Assembly: GCA_025602915.1 (NCBI GenBank)
Contig: JAHLJZ010000028.1
Coordinates: 62,001 to 126,000 of the forward strand
Length of the DNA: 64,000 bases
From: Paraphysoderma sedebokerense
Taxonomy: Eukaryota; Blastocladiomycota; Physodermatomycetes; Physodermatales; Physodermataceae
Direction of reading: 5' to 3'
How positions within the stretch are numbered: position 1 is the first letter of the stretch; every line of letters begins with the position of its first letter. This document shows, in pieces, positions 6,005 to 49,660 of the stretch. The translations under genes were made by a program, and so were the position numbers. A model generated the notes under the pieces. It was not told the origin of the DNA, searched no databases, and worked only from the letters and a program-made list of their open reading frames with translations.

Positions 6005-6412
6005 CTTTCGTTTGTATTTGCGGGATGATAGGAGGATGTCCTGTCATCAGGAATGGCGGTGGGGTGAAGGGATCCAGTCAGCAATTTGCGCGCCATAATA
6101 TTTAAAACTTAAAACCGAATTATTCGTATGCATCCAGCGCACTGTCATGCTAGTGCCAAGATTACGGGAATATAGATATTGTCGTCTTTAATTGTCTTAC
6201 ATATATATTGGACAAATTGGGAACCTAAAATCAGTCATCGCAGATGCTTTGACGATCATACCTTCGCTGGGTCCTAATCTTTTGCAAAATGCATACAAGG
6301 ATGATTCCGAGTATCGAAAATCTGGCGGCCCCATAATGGTGTGGTTTGAACAACAGGAGAATCTAGTAGATTCAGAATCAGATTTTGATTTTCCTTGATA
6401 TTTCAATTGCAC
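6005..6412. other. gap with diverged repeat sequence
   Basis: No supported gene. From about 6270 onward the sequence is recognisably but imperfectly similar to 19365-19481 (shared landmarks GCGGCCCC, GGTTTG.ACAACAG.AGAATCTAGTA). It is thus the diverged left shoulder of the long repeat that follows. The 68-aa open frame here has no domain. Confidence 0.5.
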
Positions 6413-8217
6413 AGAGTTTTATGACCCTGAAGTGCCTTCAGCCTCGCATAATTTAAATTACTCATCACTGTGGAATTTTACGATTTGCAACATTGTGAGG
6501 ACATATCTAGGCCCAATCTGACGGCTAATTTACTTTTATTTCAAATGTCGCAGATTAGTATACTTACTCACACATCAAGTATAAGTGATGCGGGACTCAA
6601 ATTAACACCGTTAGGTTCCTAAATGAGATGTTCGACATATTAACGGTATCGATTTTGACTGTATTTAGCAGCACGATTCACATGTCGCAGATAAATAGAC
6701 TACGCTTTGCGTCGACTCTAAGACTATACCATCTGAACCTTGAGAAACATTGCGTGTGGACTTTCTGCCACGTCAAACCATCCGGGTTATATCGGGTCAC
6801 TATATCGAACCGATGGTTACTGCAACAGATCTCAGTCATCTTGTGGCTTCTGATGTTTTGTGCCACATGTAAGACGTACAGAAAATGATTCAAGCGTTGA
6901 AATTTTAGCTTAAATTATCCGAAATGTGGAACATTCAAGTGTAACGGGCATGGTGAATACTGTCAATCGTTTTCGGATGAGGTCTACATACTATAATGCA
7001 AACAATTAGAGAAAGAACAGTTAATCAATGTCGAATGTCTTTAATATGGAGCTTAGCTCACCACATCCCTAAACGTAGCCAAAACATTACGTACCTTCAC
7101 CCAAATCAGCGGACAATTTAAAACAACGAAGTATCAAACAACGGACATCTAACAACGAGCTGAACGGGATTTTCACCGACCTGATTGTTAACATGAACGG
7201 CCACGGGTCCCGTTTTGTCATCACCGTCTATCATATGCGGAAAACAAAATAACCAATGTTTCAAGGTAATTAGACATATATTAGATCTCAAACTGAACCC
7301 CTGACCGTTATGTTTTTGGCTATCTGAAATCCGAGGAATCCAGACAACGAAATGACGACACTATGTTTAACAGAAATCAAATCATGTTGTGACTGTGTTC
7401 TGCTTCAAATCTAAGAAATTTCAGAAATAACCATGACTTTGAGACAACACGTACGTATAGTTAACACCAACGGCACCAATGTGTCAGTAGTGGATAGTGA
7501 GGAGGTTCAATTAACTGGCGGCTGAAACGAGTATCTGGATTTCTCTATACGGAACAATGTGTGATAAACCTGAAAGATTCAATTTGATTTGAAAAGGCTG
7601 TGAAAACGTTCAATTTCAACACGAACTTGAACTCGTTCAAGTGATAGAGGAGCTATAATAAAAAGCACTTTAAAATTGTAAACTCTAATAACAAAAACTC
7701 GGTGTAGTTGATTAGTAAGTGGGGGCTGAATTGTATTTAGGTAAAATTCTCCAAATATTACATTTGCCACAATATCAGCAATGACGTAGTAAAATAGACT
7801 AAACTAGTATTTGCAACGGCAATCCCATCCTCGACAGAACTAGGTTTCCTTAAAACCTTTGTTTGGATGAAAACAGTCGACTCTGATGTCGCAGATTTAT
7901 TTCCATATGCTGCAATAAGGAGGCGCAATGAAAATTTTTGCAGATCCTTCGCAATATACGACAATGGCATGGGCCGAGAGTGTGGCGAACATTTAATATT
8001 TATTCGTAATCGATACTGATATAGACTCTCAGGCGATGCTGCCAATTCTCGGCTATTCCATTCTGTGCCTCAATCACATTGACAGAGAAAATGAGAATGA
8101 TACAGACTAGTATTCCAGAATTGATGACGTCGATTTATTCAGAGATGCTTGGAAGAGAAGACTCTCGTAAGGGGCGCCGCTAAGCAGGACGTTGACTGCT
8201 GGTGCAAAGCGTATGCA
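6413..8217 (+). repeat. long direct repeat, copy A
   Basis: About 1.8 kb that is identical, as far as I can read, to 19482-21286 at a constant offset of 13069 bases. The four open frames of 63-95 codons are identical in both copies. The last 20 bases differ at a few positions (GACTGCTGG versus GACTGTTAG), after which similarity is lost. None of the open frames has a recognisable domain, and stop codons are frequent on both strands, so I see no intact gene in it. The flanking shoulder at 6270-6412 is homologous to that of copy B but clearly diverged, so the near-perfect identity is confined to the core. Confidence 0.9.
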
Positions 8218-18646: not shown

Positions 18647-19481
18647 TGTATAATTGTGGTATGCTCATGTCAGCAAGAGTAATTTTGTTGGAGGGTGATT
18701 GTCAAGTTGGAGTTTTGGGACAAGACCTCAATTGAAAGGTGTGAACTGTGAACGCCATTAGAAGTATAACAATGTAATGGCCCAATGGGTCTTTGATAAA
18801 GAAATCTCAGTACGAGGCGCGCTACTGTAATCATCAGAAGAGCTGCAGGAACTTGGATACCTCCAGCGGTTAAATCCTCTTTTTGCAACGGCAGACCATG
18901 CAAGATAAGACGATGGCCTCAATTGTTTTAGTCATTTGATGGCCTTTTTAATTGGTTCGCAGTGCAAGGCAAATCACAAGAAGACATAGTGAAATCTCGA
19001 AGGGTTGGCAAGCGTTAAAGTTGGTATTTGTGGGACATGATGGGGAACTAATAAAGTCCTACGCCTTCCCCAGCATGTACCTTCATATTCATTAAAGAAA
19101 ACATTGGAATGTTGCCTTTTAAGGAAATATCGTCATTATTTTATAAGTTTAGTTCAGGGTGATTGGTGGAATCCGTAAGAATGATGTCCCATTTGTCCGA
19201 TGACATTTTTCGTTTTGTATTGAAAGTGTTGGTTGCAGTATGGATGTGAAAATTTTCAATAGTACAAATACTATTGTGGCATAATACAATGGTAATATTC
19301 AATGGCTCACCGCCGCAACATACGTTCGCTCAAAGTTAGCTGCTATTCCGGTGCATGACGCAATACCAGGACGATATCCAGATTGAATAATTAGCGGCCC
19401 CAAAATGGAGCGGTTTGCACAACAGAAGAATCTAGTAAATTCTCAGGATTAGATTTTGGTCCTTGTCAATTTCGATTACAC
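18647..19481. other. gap with diverged repeat shoulder
   Basis: No supported gene. The 77-codon minus-strand frame at 18670-18903 has no domain. From about 19365 the sequence is the diverged left shoulder of the long repeat, comparable with 6270-6412. Confidence 0.45.
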
Positions 19482-21286
19482 AAAGTTTTATGACCCTGAA
19501 GTGCCTTCAGCCTCGCATAATTTAAATTACTCATCACTGTGGAATTTTACGATTTGCAACATTGTGAGGACATATCTAGGCCCAATCTGACGGCTAATTT
19601 ACTTTTATTTCAAATGTCGCAGATTAGTATACTTACTCACACATCAAGTATAAGTGATGCGGGACTCAAATTAACACCGTTAGGTTCCTAAATGAGATGT
19701 TCGACATATTAACGGTATCGATTTTGACTGTATTTAGCAGCACGATTCACATGTCGCAGATAAATAGACTACGCTTTGCGTCGACTCTAAGACTATACCA
19801 TCTGAACCTTGAGAAACATTGCGTGTGGACTTTCTGCCACGTCAAACCATCCGGGTTATATCGGGTCACTATATCGAACCGATGGTTACTGCAACAGATC
19901 TCAGTCATCTTGTGGCTTCTGATGTTTTGTGCCACATGTAAGACGTACAGAAAATGATTCAAGCGTTGAAATTTTAGCTTAAATTATCCGAAATGTGGAA
20001 CATTCAAGTGTAACGGGCATGGTGAATACTGTCAATCGTTTTCGGATGAGGTCTACATACTATAATGCAAACAATTAGAGAAAGAACAGTTAATCAATGT
20101 CGAATGTCTTTAATATGGAGCTTAGCTCACCACATCCCTAAACGTAGCCAAAACATTACGTACCTTCACCCAAATCAGCGGACAATTTAAAACAACGAAG
20201 TATCAAACAACGGACATCTAACAACGAGCTGAACGGGATTTTCACCGACCTGATTGTTAACATGAACGGCCACGGGTCCCGTTTTGTCATCACCGTCTAT
20301 CATATGCGGAAAACAAAATAACCAATGTTTCAAGGTAATTAGACATATATTAGATCTCAAACTGAACCCCTGACCGTTATGTTTTTGGCTATCTGAAATC
20401 CGAGGAATCCAGACAACGAAATGACGACACTATGTTTAACAGAAATCAAATCATGTTGTGACTGTGTTCTGCTTCAAATCTAAGAAATTTCAGAAATAAC
20501 CATGACTTTGAGACAACACGTACGTATAGTTAACACCAACGGCACCAATGTGTCAGTAGTGGATAGTGAGGAGGTTCAATTAACTGGCGGCTGAAACGAG
20601 TATCTGGATTTCTCTATACGGAACAATGTGTGATAAACCTGAAAGATTCAATTTGATTTGAAAAGGCTGTGAAAACGTTCAATTTCAACACGAACTTGAA
20701 CTCGTTCAAGTGATAGAGGAGCTATAATAAAAAGCACTTTAAAATTGTAAACTCTAATAACAAAAACTCGGTGTAGTTGATTAGTAAGTGGGGGCTGAAT
20801 TGTATTTAGGTAAAATTCTCCAAATATTACATTTGCCACAATATCAGCAATGACGTAGTAAAATAGACTAAACTAGTATTTGCAACGGCAATCCCATCCT
20901 CGACAGAACTAGGTTTCCTTAAAACCTTTGTTTGGATGAAAACAGTCGACTCTGATGTCGCAGATTTATTTCCATATGCTGCAATAAGGAGGCGCAATGA
21001 AAATTTTTGCAGATCCTTCGCAATATACGACAATGGCATGGGCCGAGAGTGTGGCGAACATTTAATATTTATTCGTAATCGATACTGATATAGACTCTCA
21101 GGCGATGCTGCCAATTCTCGGCTATTCCATTCTGTGCCTCAATCACATTGACAGAGAAAATGAGAATGATACAGACTAGTATTCCAGAATTGATGACGTC
21201 GATTTATTCAGAGATGCTTGGAAGAGAAGACTCTCGTAAGGGGCGCCGCTAAGCAGGACGTTGACTGTTAGTGCAAAGCGTATGCA
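19482..21286 (+). repeat. long direct repeat, copy B
   Basis: Matches 6413-8217 base for base at offset 13069 over all blocks compared, up to a few differences in the final 20 bases. Orientation is the same as copy A, so the pair encloses 11.3 kb including the transposase and OLD-like genes. No intact gene is recognised inside. Confidence 0.9.
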
Positions 21287-45350: not shown

Positions 45351-45368
45351 TCTCGAGTAGTATAGTGG
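45351..45368 (+). tRNA. 5' part of a split tRNA-Asp(GTC) gene
   Basis: TCTCGAGTAGTATAGTGG matches nucleotides 1-18/19 of eukaryotic tRNA-Asp. TCTCGAG is the 5' acceptor strand, and TAGTATAGTGG is the A-box/D-arm up to the conserved G18G19. The following bases (GGTAGTACAAGC) do not continue a tRNA. The complementary acceptor strand CTCGAGA lies at 49653-49659, after the 4.2 kb element, with 7 of 7 base pairs. This half alone cannot be functional. Confidence 0.85.
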
Positions 45369-45400
45369 GGTAGTACAAGCGTGATTCGCGACAAAACGAG

Positions 45401-45416
45401 GTCGCACCGGGTCGCA
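45401..45416 (+). repeat. left-end GTCGCA pair
   Basis: GGTCGCACC is repeated at 10-bp spacing (GTCGCA at 45401 and 45411), 33-48 bp inside the left end of the element. The same hexamer in the same orientation occurs at 49487, 49533, 49542 and 49562 near the right end. These are candidate recombinase-binding sites. Confidence 0.5.
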
Positions 45417-45524
45417 CCCTCGCATTGCACTGAAACGGCGTTACAACAGCCGGGGAACTGCCTTGTTTGTTTGCTTTCGCTGGCAACCTCTTCATTCCGT
45501 CCGTTGCAAATTGAAACCGCAGCC

Positions 45525-46238
45525 ATGAATCCGATCTATGAAAAGTGGATGGTCTCAACCAACTCGACTCTCGGATATCAACCTGACGCTATTATAACAG
45601 ACATTTCGACTCTCTACCAAAAACTTGTCGAATGGGGTGGTCGTCGTGACGAAAATTCTAACCACGATGAAAATATTACATCCGGTCAGACAGAAGTTAT
45701 CACTCCTCAGCACCAATGCTCTCATTCCCCCGGTACTCGTCGTAATATTGTTCGACTAAATCAATCGATCGTAGAGCTTAGCAAGGCTGTTGATAAGAGC
45801 GTCAAAACAAATGCTCAAAGGATTGTTGAAGAGACCGCCATTGCCGAACCAGATTCTCCGTCCCACAGTAAAGATTTTATTCGTCGCGATGGGACGAAAA
45901 TCCGACATGAGGATATCATGTCACTGGGCTGGCATGCTATTGGGGGTTTGAAGGGATGTATCAAGGCAGTTTTATATGGCTTCACTCACAACGAAAGTAC
46001 ATTTCCCCCGATGAAGGAATGGAAAGCAGATAGGACCTTTGCAAGGTGGTTTAGACAACATAATTTAAACTTTTGGAAGCATACTACTTGGTATATCACT
46101 GTTGGGAAAGTTTACGAACAATCGTATAGTGAAGTAACGGATGAGACCTTGCAGGACTTCATAGTAACCAAATTAAATGGAAAGTCAAGTAGTTCTTACT
46201 GTAAAGAATGGGCCCAGAAGCAAAGTAAAGAAGAATGA
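45525..46238 (+). CDS. unknown element-borne protein, 237 aa
   Basis: Intronless frame from ATG 45525 (MNPIYEKWMVSTNSTLGYQP) to 46238. The upstream in-frame extension begins with GTG and is not needed. The N-terminal half is polar, with a helical stretch (IVRLNQSIVELSKAVDKSVK). The C-terminal half (residues 115-237) looks globular, rich in tryptophan and aromatic residues (IMSLGWHAIGGLKGC, WKADRTFARWFRQHNLNFW). No family is recognised. It converges on the resolvase gene with only 17 bp between stop codons, a compact arrangement fitting an element gene. A DNA-binding or accessory role in recombination is a guess. Confidence 0.65.
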   Translation: MNPIYEKWMVSTNSTLGYQPDAIITDISTLYQKLVEWGGRRDENSNHDENITSGQTEVITPQHQCSHSPGTRRNIVRLNQSIVELSKAVDKSVKTNAQRIVEETAIAEPDSPSHSKDFIRRDGTKIRHEDIMSLGWHAIGGLKGCIKAVLYGFTHNESTFPPMKEWKADRTFARWFRQHNLNFWKHTTWYITVGKVYEQSYSEVTDETLQDFIVTKLNGKSSSSYCKEWAQKQSKEE

Positions 46239-46255
46239 AAATAAAATTGAAGATT

Positions 46256-47163
46256 TTATTGCACAAAGTTTTTAATCCACTTCTTCCTTTGTTCGATAAA
46301 CTGCACAAAAGCTAGTAATTGTAACAAGCAATCTGCCATGTCGTCCTTTTTCTGTAGTTGATGGAAGCTGATGACATCTTCAAAAGACAAAAACAGACGT
46401 CTGGGTAGAGATTTAATATCACCGTCTAACCAATCGGACACCATTCTTACGGCATCCTTCTTTCTATCCTTATACTTGGTACTTCGTGGTACCGCGTCAG
46501 GAATTTGCGATGCTTTGAATGCAGTCATGACTGCTGTCGTGAGTTCTTCGGACGCATATGCCAGAGCATGAAACTGGGCAGCAATGGGAATTAAACCTCG
46601 TCGAGGTTGCTTTTCAATTACGAAGAACACTTGGTTTATGGGCAATTGATCGATCATCTCAGCAAAAGCCTTGCGTACGGATCGCGACAGTTCAGGAAGA
46701 TCCGTCCCGGAGCATTCGAGGTTAACCAGGCGCCATTTGAATATGAATTCGCTCTCGCAATCGTAAGTGACATATGCCAAGTTTTTAAGCCCAACATCAA
46801 TACTGATAATGTAGCGGAAGGACCGACAAGCGAGTTCAGATAATGAGTGAGAGATTCTTTCGATGTACTGACTTCGTCGCTGTCGGCTTGAAAGGGAAGA
46901 CAGACTACCATAACCACAACTATTGATTACAGCAACGAGGTCTTTGTTCTTCATTTCCGATAATCTGTTAAAATTATAATTGAGCGAATTTAAGCAATGG
47001 TCAGAGGAATAGATAGAGTAGGAAAGAATGAAACGGAATGATTAAGTCTAAGGTATCTCAGAGATTGATTAAATACTTACATATCGCAAACAATTGCAGC
47101 AACTTCGGGACTTGCATTGTTGCTTTTTAGATCTTCCTTTAAAAAATGATTTAATTTCGACAT
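46256..47163 (-). CDS. Cce1/Ydc2-family Holliday-junction resolvase with SAP domain
   Basis: Exons 47163-47081 and 46964-46256 join (GATAT|GTAAG ... ACAG|ATTATC) to 263 aa. The N-terminal 45 residues form a SAP-like DNA-binding segment (NHFLKEDLKSNNASPEVAAI, MKNKDLVAVINSCGYGSLSS). The RNase H-like nuclease follows with the family catalytic signatures: IISIDVGLKNLAYV (first Asp), VFFVIEKQPRRG (Glu) and KKDDMADCLLQ (final Asp pair). Family members cleave four-way junctions and normally act in mitochondrial DNA segregation in fungi; poxvirus A22 is a relative. No clear mitochondrial presequence is visible. Its position inside the tRNA-interrupting element suggests cargo or an element function, unless the host gene was captured. 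Confidence 0.88.
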
Positions 47164-47500
47164 TTTATTCGGAAAGAGAACCCATCAAATAGGCAAAAGC
47201 ATGGACTTTCAGAAACGCGCCCTTTTATAATGGAAGGGCCGAAATTTAGGCATTCTTTCAGAGTAAGGGATGTAAATAAATTAAGAGGGCAACACATGGT
47301 AATGAAGAAAGGGGGTAGGGGAAAAGAAGGGGAAAGGGAGCATAATCAAAGCAGAAAATACAAAAAAAAAATCAAGTGAGTTCTGCTCTAAAGATTGAAG
47401 AGCCGTGTATGTTATGGAAGACCAGGAATGCGGGGTTTTCCAAATTTAATTAATTATCTAAGTATGACATATAAGAATACAGAAAATATTATGGATGCTT
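47164..47500. other. gap inside the element, purine-rich tract
   Basis: Lies between the resolvase start and the recombinase stop, both minus strand, so it holds the resolvase promoter. A strongly purine-biased stretch (47305-47350) and an A-run of ten (47362-47371) are the only notable features. Confidence 0.45.
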
Positions 47501-49412
47501 TTAACATTGTCGTTTTGTGTGTACCACAGTGATGATGCCAGGAGTTGGCTCTTCGTGTCGTCTCTTTTCCGCCATTTGCCGCACTCTCAGTCTCCGCATT
47601 GCATGCCGATCCAGAACAGGATTTCCATTTGCATCGAAACCCGTAGACTCGAATCGAGTTGTCCCAACTGGTTGCCACACCCATTTCAAGAGGTCAGGAT
47701 CTCCCGCGCCGGGTTTTTCTTAAAAATTATTCGACAAGATTGCATGGTTAATTGAAATCAGAGCGAATGAAGGACAATAATCTACCTTGCTGTCGTTTAC
47801 GGTTTTGAGATCGACTACGTGCGTCATTATTGTACAACATAACAGTTTTGTGATCTTTGTGACCAGATAACTCCATAATTTCCTCCATGGTAGCTTCCGA
47901 GATGATTGCATGCTGTATACCTGTTCGGCGCAAGGAATGAGGGGTGATATTCATCCTCTTAGAATCCATTCCGGCTAGAGCAAAAATTTGAGGGATCCCT
48001 TTATCGAGATACGTCTCAGGGTTAAAGTCTTTTCCAGGCGGAAAATCAAACAAATAACCCGTTTTAATTTTTGTCGCAAGGAGGTATGTCGTTAGCAGGG
48101 AAACAGGACAGAGGTAATCAGCCGTTCCTTCATTGGTAGAGATCATCTTGATAACCGGATACTTGCTATATTTGTCTTTCGGAAAGACAATTTTCAATAC
48201 TTTCGGTATCTTCCTGTTGGGGAGAGTGATAATTTCGTTGTCGTCGTTCGTCAAGGGCACTATCTGCTCCGCCAAAATACTACAAAGAGAGGTTTTTCTA
48301 TTGGTGGAGTGTATACCTAAAACCATCTAAATATTCATGAATATGATTTTGCGCTCAAAAAAAAAAAAAGGAAATGCTACGTACAGCCACATAAACGCCG
48401 AATAGTTTGAGACTATTGGAAGCAAGGACCGCCTCGAACAGCTTTTTGAAGGTGGTTAATTCTGGTGAGCAAGATGATTAGATTACCGTCGCATAAAGAA
48501 CCAATGGGCATTCATTTACCGATAGGACTGGCTTTCCAGTTTACAATACCTCCCTCATCCCATTCTTTCTTTAAGTGGTTCATAAGGTAAACGAACCGAC
48601 CTTGCCGCGTTGCGTCGCCCGTCGCAGTGCCATCCTCCAACGACTTGTATTCACCAATATGTTTGTACTTCTTTAATATGTTCCGAATTGCTGTTTTCGC
48701 AGCCAATGCTGTATTATAGGATCTTCCTAATGGAAGGATTCTTGCACCATCGCCCAAGTCGAGGAAGTTTTTCTCGTTTGGTTTGCCTGTGTGGTTTAGG
48801 TTGAGACTTCCGTGTCGTAAAGCCATGCCGAACTGGTCAGAATAAAAAACCTTCGTCAAACTCTCCCGAGGGATCCATCTCAAACGGAGACAACGTTGGA
48901 GTTCCGTTTACATCCTTGTAAGGAAGCTGAAACCGATATCTGAAAAGACAGATTAGATCATCCTCAAGGAAGGCGCTCTTCTTGAGCCATTCATCTGAAA
49001 GCCTCTCGAAAAAGAGTGCGCCCCGCTTCATCGCATCTAGTTCTTTTGCGGCCTCTCGAAGCTGATTCATTTGAGAGTTCCATCTAGCGTTGAAATGTGT
49101 TATTAAGTGGAGGAACTGAGACACGTGGAATTGGATAGAATTTGCAACTTACAGCTTCTTGGAATTGGCGGCGAGGGGATTCTCCGAGACCATGGAATCG
49201 TTTACTGAAGGCATTGATGTAACGGTTGCGATGGCAGCTCGCTGAACGGCACAAACCACCGGAGTAGCTTGAGCAGAGGAGGAAACACCGTTGTTGTCTT
49301 TCTCCGCGGGACTGGGCGGAGTGGTCGTAGTTTCCGGGGGCGGTGTATAGGGAGGAGGGGCGGAGAGGGGCTCCGCTGAATCAGAATCATGATCATGATC
49401 GTCGGAAAACAT
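47501..49412 (-). CDS. Crypton-like tyrosine recombinase, six exons, intact
   Basis: Site-specific recombinase. Exons 49412-49153, 49083-48912, 48832-48520, 48461-48385, 48326-47786 and 47718-47501 join with consistent phases to 526 aa. The N-terminus is acidic/proline-rich and disordered; a helical core-binding region follows (LREAAKELDAMKRGALFF). The catalytic domain has Arg in STNRKTS (about 48297), HSLRR (about 47925-47939), GHKDHKT (about 47860) and the nucleophile Tyr in VMLYNND (about 47833). The full catalytic set is present. A C-terminal extension (KWVWQPVGTTRFESTGFD, then a basic helix) may bind DNA, as the GCR1_C-like tails of Cryptons do. The apparent frame change near 48850 is a 79-nt intron (48911-48833) and not damage. 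Confidence 0.85.
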
Positions 49413-49582
49413 GATCTTAAAATAGAAAAGTAAATGAATGAACTGGGATGGAGGAAACTGATTTATAAGGACAAAACAGTGGACGCGTCGCATGGGAACG
49501 CTATACGGAGGTATCCCGAACCCAGGCGAAACGTCGCACACGTCGCATCCTTGTTTGAACCGTCGCATAAACTATGTATATT
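49413..49582. promoter_or_regulatory. recombinase promoter and right end with GTCGCA motifs
   Basis: This 170-bp stretch lies between the recombinase ATG and the tRNA junction. GTCGCA occurs at 49487, 49533, 49542 and 49562. The last copy is 16 bp from the junction core GTATATTGG. The promoter of the recombinase must overlap these sites, so binding could autoregulate it (inference). Confidence 0.5.
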
Positions 49583-49660
49583 GGTGAGTATCCCCGCCTG
49601 TCAATAACGTTAAGTTAACATTGATCGCGGGAGACCGGGGTTCAATTCCCCGCTCGAGAG
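49583..49660 (+). tRNA. 3' part of the split tRNA-Asp(GTC) gene, with a 22-nt intron
   Basis: From GGTGAGTATCCCCGCC the sequence follows tRNA-Asp. The anticodon loop is CTGTCA with anticodon GTC at 49600-49602. An extra 22 nt at 49604-49625 sits exactly after position 37, the canonical nuclear tRNA intron site, and then CGCGGGAGACC. The T-arm CGGGGTTCAATTCCCCG includes the B-box GGTTCAATTCC. The 3' acceptor is CTCGAGA, pairing perfectly with TCTCGAG at 45351. The discriminator is G (49660). Upstream of the core the element end (AACTATGTATATT) replaces the first 17 nt, so no acceptor 5' strand is present here. Confidence 0.88.
49604..49625 (+). other. tRNA intron, 22 nt
   Basis: ATAACGTTAAGTTAACATTGAT interrupts the anticodon arm between positions 37 and 38. 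Removing it gives the CCCGC/GCGGG anticodon stem with a seven-base loop CTGTCAC. It contains the palindrome GTTAAC. Confidence 0.8.

Follow-up and report, generated by a model that had tools for sequence, protein, structure and literature searches.

Analysis of a 64,000-nucleotide stretch of the Paraphysoderma sedebokerense genome (positions 62,001 to 126,000 of contig JAHLJZ010000028.1, here C28; hereafter the window) revealed a tRNA-Asp(GTC) gene whose two parts flank a 4.2 kb insert, element A, which encodes a tyrosine recombinase, a predicted Holliday-junction resolvase and an orphan protein. Element A is probably (we put this at roughly 0.8) a site-specific eukaryotic DNA element that its recombinase integrated as a circle into one member of a multicopy tRNA-Asp family, leaving the gene unrestored. 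Searches of the whole assembly (27.3 Mb, 195 contigs) also revealed a new element, B, which is unrelated to element A and has copies at one and the same position in three further tRNA genes.

The preliminary description of the window had taken the two fragments to be parts of one tRNA-Asp gene around 4.2 kb of other DNA, and a test of the kind that it proposed bears this out: with 45369-49584 removed, ARAGORN calls tRNA-Asp(gtc) with a 22-nt intron, whereas neither junction by itself yields a tRNA call. No tRNA is found in the window as assembled, either by ARAGORN or by Rfam at gathering scores. The left part (45351-45368) and the right end (49660) stand as first given. The right part had been started at 49583, which had to be revised; GG at 49583-49584 is common to both sides, giving AGTGG joined to TGAG, and placement of the insert is ambiguous within the shared TGG (Table 1). 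The intron follows the anticodon, as in the other tRNA-Asp genes; the cut is elsewhere, within the D loop, and leaves the A and B boxes 4.2 kb apart. At the level of sequence it is thus confirmed that element A broke one tRNA-Asp(GTC) gene and that the gene is restored on neither side.

Comparison with paralogues supplied the empty site. All twelve genome matches to the 3′ part were inspected and comprise ten contiguous tRNA-Asp genes, a copy on C22 and the window copy. The contiguous genes read TCTCGAGTAGTATAGTGG directly followed by TGAGTATCCCC across the junction point, one of them with a substitution in the acceptor strand, and all ten have CCTGTCA with anticodon GTC; ARAGORN misnames five of them because of their introns. 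Outside the intron, the split halves are unchanged relative to these paralogues. The 5′ 18-mer, at up to two mismatches, occurs at twelve places: the ten contiguous genes (nine exact, one with one mismatch), the window and C19. The C19 match (two mismatches) was dismissed as chance, as no tRNA body lies behind it; by our own arithmetic about one chance match was expected, compared with none in a reversed control. The earlier claim that neither side is complete therefore holds, on the strength of the contiguous paralogues, the shared crossover core and the absence of tRNA calls at single junctions. The left flank has no second copy in the genome (the right flank lay outside this search), so an empty allele of this very locus is absent from the assembly. 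The C22 copy (C22:176262), which has a U2 small nuclear RNA gene nearby (stretch L012:5489-5684), is missing 10 bp of its D loop, including the crossover core; this gap may be a chance deletion or the footprint of an imprecise excision.

The joined ends of element A agree with the tRNA target exactly over TGG and at eight of nine bases over GTATANTGG. To the left of the cut, 8/12 bases agree, a match that 0.28% of random 12-mers from the window equal. The base preceding TGG is G at the left junction and T at the right, and the base following it is likewise G at the left and T at the right; the flanking differences thus go to opposite junctions, which places the exchange within or at the edge of TGG. 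The terminal 150 bp of the element share no inverted 8-mers. The hexamer GTCGCA occurs six times within 100 bp of the ends, whereas control sampling of the rest of the window, with up to 100,000 randomly drawn pairs of 100-bp stretches, never gave more than two. Its spacings are 10 bp at the left end and 46, 9 and 20 bp at the right, and the motifs are possible accessory binding sites.

An intact tyrosine recombinase had been credited to the insert; the frame is indeed open over 531 aa, though solely after splicing of five introns of 58-69 nt (the start codon is our choice). A frameshift was considered where two frames abut near 48840 and was rejected, as a 64-nt GT-AG intron explains the break and the copy on C100 also splices open. 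The protein matches a PHROG integrase family (2.1e-9), and its best Protein Data Bank (PDB) matches are XerD (0.002) and, by profile, XerA (0.0019). The catalytic exon contains R10, H130, R133, H156 and Y165, which we take to fit the tyrosine recombinase pattern; H130, R133 and Y165 are invariant across 16 aligned rows. A search of the spliced protein with an E limit of 5 detected no GCR1_C domain. Structure models scored 70 for the recombinase and 34 for the resolvase (not used). With an E limit of 1, none of 7,116 candidates was a homologue of the spliced recombinase. A four-row profile retrieved 48 proteins, of which one is the window's own and the remaining 47 have E values starting at 4.1e-6; those with names are labelled integrase, XerD or hypothetical, and nine come from mushrooms.

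Within the genome, element A DNA matches itself and part of C100 only. The C100 relative (C100:312-2065) is 84% identical in DNA and, read from an ATG at C100:322, gives an open frame after splicing, with nothing corresponding to the N-terminal part of the window protein. More diverged recombinases lie on C24 and C132 (33 and 31% identical to the window exon; 73% DNA identity to each other over 1,560 bp), and C39 gives a weak match (3.4e-5). In the limited stretches covered near the genes on C100, C132, C39 and C30, the last of which holds a resolvase relative described below, no tRNA fragments were found at E up to 0.1 with a library of 35 of the 63 listed tRNAs (about one per distinct score; no tRNA-Ala). 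The C24 recombinase (C24:254917-256714) lies about 200 bp downstream of a tRNA-Arg(TCG) gene on the same strand. That gene was rejected as a split target; it is intact and no second long fragment is present.

The second gene of element A, which was not noticed in the preliminary description, is predicted to encode a Ydc2/Cce1-type Holliday-junction resolvase. It matches the Ydc2-catalyt profile at 32.1 bits (cut-off 23) and, more weakly, Pox_A22 at 28.9 bits (cut-off 22). The single sequence has no PDB match at E up to 1; a three-row profile matches 1kcf, which we take to be fission yeast Ydc2, at 2.8e-8 across most of the domain and also finds a canarypox resolvase (0.0095). D53 and E114, presumably the catalytic residues of the family, are invariant in the three rows. 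A homologue search returned one protein, identical over 88%. In a six-frame genome search with the Ydc2 family, the best match was a gene on C15 (61.9 bits, compared with 15.8 for the window gene), so the element A resolvase looks additional to a host enzyme. Another Ydc2-like gene, at C30:69505-70203, is 28% identical to the window's and shares the stretch KKDDMAD; neighbouring open reading frames (ORFs) have no family matches, and the locus is perhaps a third element. The 237-aa orphan has no Pfam family below E 0.2 (best PHROG 0.09), and its sole genome match is its own copy. Scans of viral contigs gave one weak match for the recombinase (53 residues) and none for the resolvase or the orphan.

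Table 1. Features of element A and its target in the window, and stretches with element B on other contigs.
Feature	Coordinates	Strand	Basis or remark
tRNA-Asp(GTC) 5′ part: acceptor strand and D arm to end of A box	45351..45368	+	sequence, paralogue comparison
Shared core TGG, left junction	45366..45368	.	end alignment
Element A, 4,216 bp	45369..49584	.	end alignment; ARAGORN with insert removed
Two GTCGCA motifs, left end (45401, 45411)	45401..45416	+	candidate accessory binding sites
Orphan ORF, 237 aa	45525..46238	+	no family; unique in genome
Ydc2/Cce1-like resolvase gene, 263 aa (predicted); exons 47163-47081, 46964-46256	46256..47163	-	profiles
Tyrosine recombinase gene, six exons, 531 aa	47501..49412	-	splicing, profile matches, alignment
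Recombinase exons	49412-49153, 49083-48851, 48786-48520, 48461-48385, 48326-47786, 47718-47501	-	
Four GTCGCA motifs, right end (49487, 49533, 49542, 49562)	49487..49567	+	candidate accessory binding sites
Shared core TGG, right junction	49582..49584	.	end alignment
tRNA-Asp remainder: anticodon GTC, 22-nt intron, T arm, acceptor strand	49585..49660	+	sequence, paralogues, ARAGORN
Element B beside tRNA 3′ parts	C118:56787-62719; C143 from 17821; C148 from 15062		sequence comparison

The resolvase search also matched C118, C143 and C148 (E 3.9e-6 to 8.6e-6). These contigs carry one, two and two identical copies, respectively, of a 5,858 bp unit, element B, and end exactly with the unit. It contains the front part of a Ydc2-like gene, truncated as assembled, for which Pfam gives just 0.04-0.08. 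Two consecutive segments match NDC10_II (3e-5 and 0.031) and GCR1_C is matched as well (2.3e-4 or 3.6e-4, depending on extent), all below cut-off; the domain layout appears CryptonF-like. The same 55 bases adjoin the unit on all three contigs, with their final GG opening each tRNA part, and the flanks differ beyond. On C118 the part (C118:56787-56808, minus strand) corresponds to the final 22 nt of tRNA-Lys(CTT) and is identical to two intact genes there, with a run of eight T residues within the following 20 bp. The parts on C148 (GGGTCGATGCCCAGGTTCTCCA, then TTTTT) and C143 (GGATCGATGCCCTGGATCTCCA) are, we presume, Ala-like (intact tRNA-Ala genes were outside the comparison); their acceptor strands pair 6/7 and 7/7 with a truncated tRNA-Ala-like 5′ part at C148:1-55. 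In 3/3 tRNA genes the cut falls between T-stem positions 51 and 52 (standard numbering), at the start of the B box.

Only one junction of element B, on the tRNA 3′ side, is assembled. That the contigs end after whole units could mean that copies lie in tandem, that the unit is circular or that the assembly looped. C148 itself starts inside the tRNA-Ala-like gene (C148:1-55, minus strand). The break lies in the T arm, close to the insertion point of element B, and the piece could represent the absent 5′ side of a further copy. In a sample of 40 of the 390 contig ends, neither a tRNA half nor element B was found for the missing junction; the sample gave one 12-nt tRNA-Cys match (E 0.019). A genome search with the unit returned C118 alone and missed C143 and C148, which indicates that such searches undercount. 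Elements A and B are unrelated recombinase elements of one genome, both with a resolvase-like gene.

An integration mechanism is proposed where the tyrosine recombinase, if active and acting in the direction of insertion, would move element A as a circle in which GTATATTGG meets GGTAGTAC. This joint would recombine with the D loop of a multicopy tRNA-Asp gene, at the end of the A box where GTATAGTGG meets TGAGTATC, and integration there would destroy the gene. Circle integration is suggested by the anatomy of the insert together with established knowledge of the enzyme family, and the host would bear the loss because ten other contiguous tRNA-Asp genes remain. As homology is limited to about 3 bp, the second exchange should be hampered; the Ydc2-like resolvase would offer another way out by resolving the Holliday junction left after the first strand exchange. 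More tentatively, and with the odds slightly against us, we suggest that eukaryotes have tRNA-integrating elements of their own: at least two unrelated tyrosine recombinase families of this one genome would attach at the Pol III promoter boxes (the A box in the D loop, the B box in the T arm), and a resolvase carried as a second recombination enzyme would leave the recombinase just the first strand exchange, for which a few bases of homology would suffice.

Several observations weigh against site-specific circle integration of element A. The element is single-copy, so its target specificity rests on one insertion; the proposed search for further copies next to tRNA-Asp 5′ or 3′ fragments returned none in the genome (searches of this kind can undercount), and what emerged instead was the unrelated element B. 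Just 2/12 bases to the right of the cut agree with the tRNA target, and the best inverted arms at the joint (8/12 among 72 alignments) are unconvincing. The catalytic exon reaches 27.0 bits against Phage_integrase (4.3e-6; Pfam cut-off 27.1) and the spliced protein 25 bits. In the C100 relative two conserved residues, R10 and H156, have been replaced, and no tRNA lies within the stretch fetched around it, where the contig starts 311 bp before the match; the same tRNA library revealed no split tRNA in the stretches fetched around the C24, C132 and C39 relatives. The role of the resolvase in integration is proposed from its co-occurrence in elements A and B, the copy in B being truncated.

The insertion could instead reflect the chance landing of an ordinary Crypton-type transposon that has no preference for tRNA genes and carries the resolvase as cargo. 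The single copy of element A and the relatives without a split tRNA are in line with this, and the available text of a Crypton survey describes short terminal repeats for fungal Cryptons and does not mention a tRNA target (PMC3212892). We consider this explanation unlikely, given that the end of element A mimics the tRNA at the cut, that tRNA genes make up a minute fraction of the genome and that an unrelated element with a similar resolvase gene lies at three more of them. A false join that placed element A between two tRNA pieces would be easiest to envisage where genes are repeated, as tRNA genes are here, and the contigs of element B do end oddly. However, the two halves fit to the base and bound a coherent gene set, the left flank occurs just once in the genome and C28 continues for tens of kb both ways, which makes an assembly error highly improbable.

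The unchanged halves could also indicate that the split gene still functions, either with both halves expressed and joined or with element A removed as a very long intron. Such halves are equally expected of a young insertion, and a cut in the D loop away from the intron site, boxes separated by 4.2 kb and the existence of ten contiguous tRNA-Asp genes leave this hardly credible. The Pox_A22 match of the resolvase, together with reports of polinton-like viruses with tyrosine recombinases in the available text of PMC12220804, raises the prospect that element A is a shrunken integrated virus (polinton-like or related) with the recombinase and a pox-type resolvase as remnants. This is very improbable, as none of the three ORFs was identified as a viral gene, viral contigs gave only the one weak recombinase match and the Ydc2 match of the resolvase is the stronger one. 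We therefore favour site-specific integration of element A into tRNA-Asp.

The presence of two unrelated families in one genome, each with a resolvase-like gene, suggests convergence and a testable two-enzyme reaction. Every tRNA gene has an A box and a B box, so enzymes of this kind could reveal how the cost of insertion is buffered when a target exists in many copies, and they might serve as landing-site tools. Elsewhere in the window, two direct repeats of 1.93 kb (6293-8217 and 19363-21286; 98.4% identical, 13 kb apart) are reminiscent of long terminal repeats bounding an element of 15 kb, and a 376-aa zinc-finger-like ORF lies between them. GT-AG introns in the genes of element A, together with the introns of tRNA genes, are as expected of a eukaryote. 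By resemblance, we take another window gene to encode a CSL-type factor and a gene at C19 an external NADH dehydrogenase, which would fit a fungal host.

tRNA genes are classic docking sites of bacterial integrative elements. Integrative elements of bacteria and archaea combine a tyrosine recombinase, a tRNA gene target and an element end that resembles the target, and the bacterial ones usually, though not always, restore the tRNA gene. Element A is similar in using a tRNA gene as the attachment site of a tyrosine recombinase (one insertion), but differs in its unrestored tRNA, D-loop cut, eukaryotic host and resolvase gene. The earlier statement that no eukaryotic recombinase element with this target is described survives for the open-access library that was searched: no eukaryotic tyrosine recombinase DNA element inside tRNA genes was found there (subscription papers, Repbase reports and preprints lay outside the search), including the available text of PMC2699053, PMC13269885, PMC5006619 and PMC7175516.

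Cryptons are among the nearest known counterparts. Like them, element A is small, has an intron-bearing tyrosine recombinase gene, lacks terminal inverted repeats and has a proposed circle (PMC3212892); its core ends in TGG, reminiscent of CryptonS elements, whose ends are mostly TATGG (PMC3212892), while element B recalls CryptonF through its sub-cut-off NDC10_II and GCR1_C matches. In contrast to CryptonF, element A has no GCR1_C match; it also carries a resolvase gene, and its exact repeat is just 3 bp. For comparison with the direct repeats of 4 to 6 bp at Crypton ends, the looser agreement at the ends of element A is 8/9 over GTATANTGG. The word tRNA has no occurrence in the main text of the survey (PMC3212892). 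Dada transposons do insert inside eukaryotic tRNA genes, tRNA-Asp included, according to the available text of PMC3706591 and PMC8869645, but use a DDE transposase and generate target-site duplications of 6-7 bp, whereas the enzyme of element A is a tyrosine recombinase and its shared core measures 3 bp; domain searches found no DDE transposase in its three ORFs.

The predicted resolvase resembles the mitochondrial Ydc2/Cce1 enzymes in its above-cut-off profile matches and in matching 1kcf over most of the domain, and differs in lying beside a recombinase in a mobile element, apart from the C15 gene. tRNA loci are known integration hotspots according to PMC12220804, whose available text reports no tRNA genes near cryptophyte polinton-like virus insertions, some of which have tyrosine recombinases. 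Nimavirus tyrosine recombinases are tied to telomere repeats and 28S rDNA (PMC10871703, available text). Compared by description, nimaviruses are large crustacean viruses with other targets, but they share with element A a eukaryotic tyrosine recombinase at a repeated genomic target and thus provide a precedent for target choice of this general sort.

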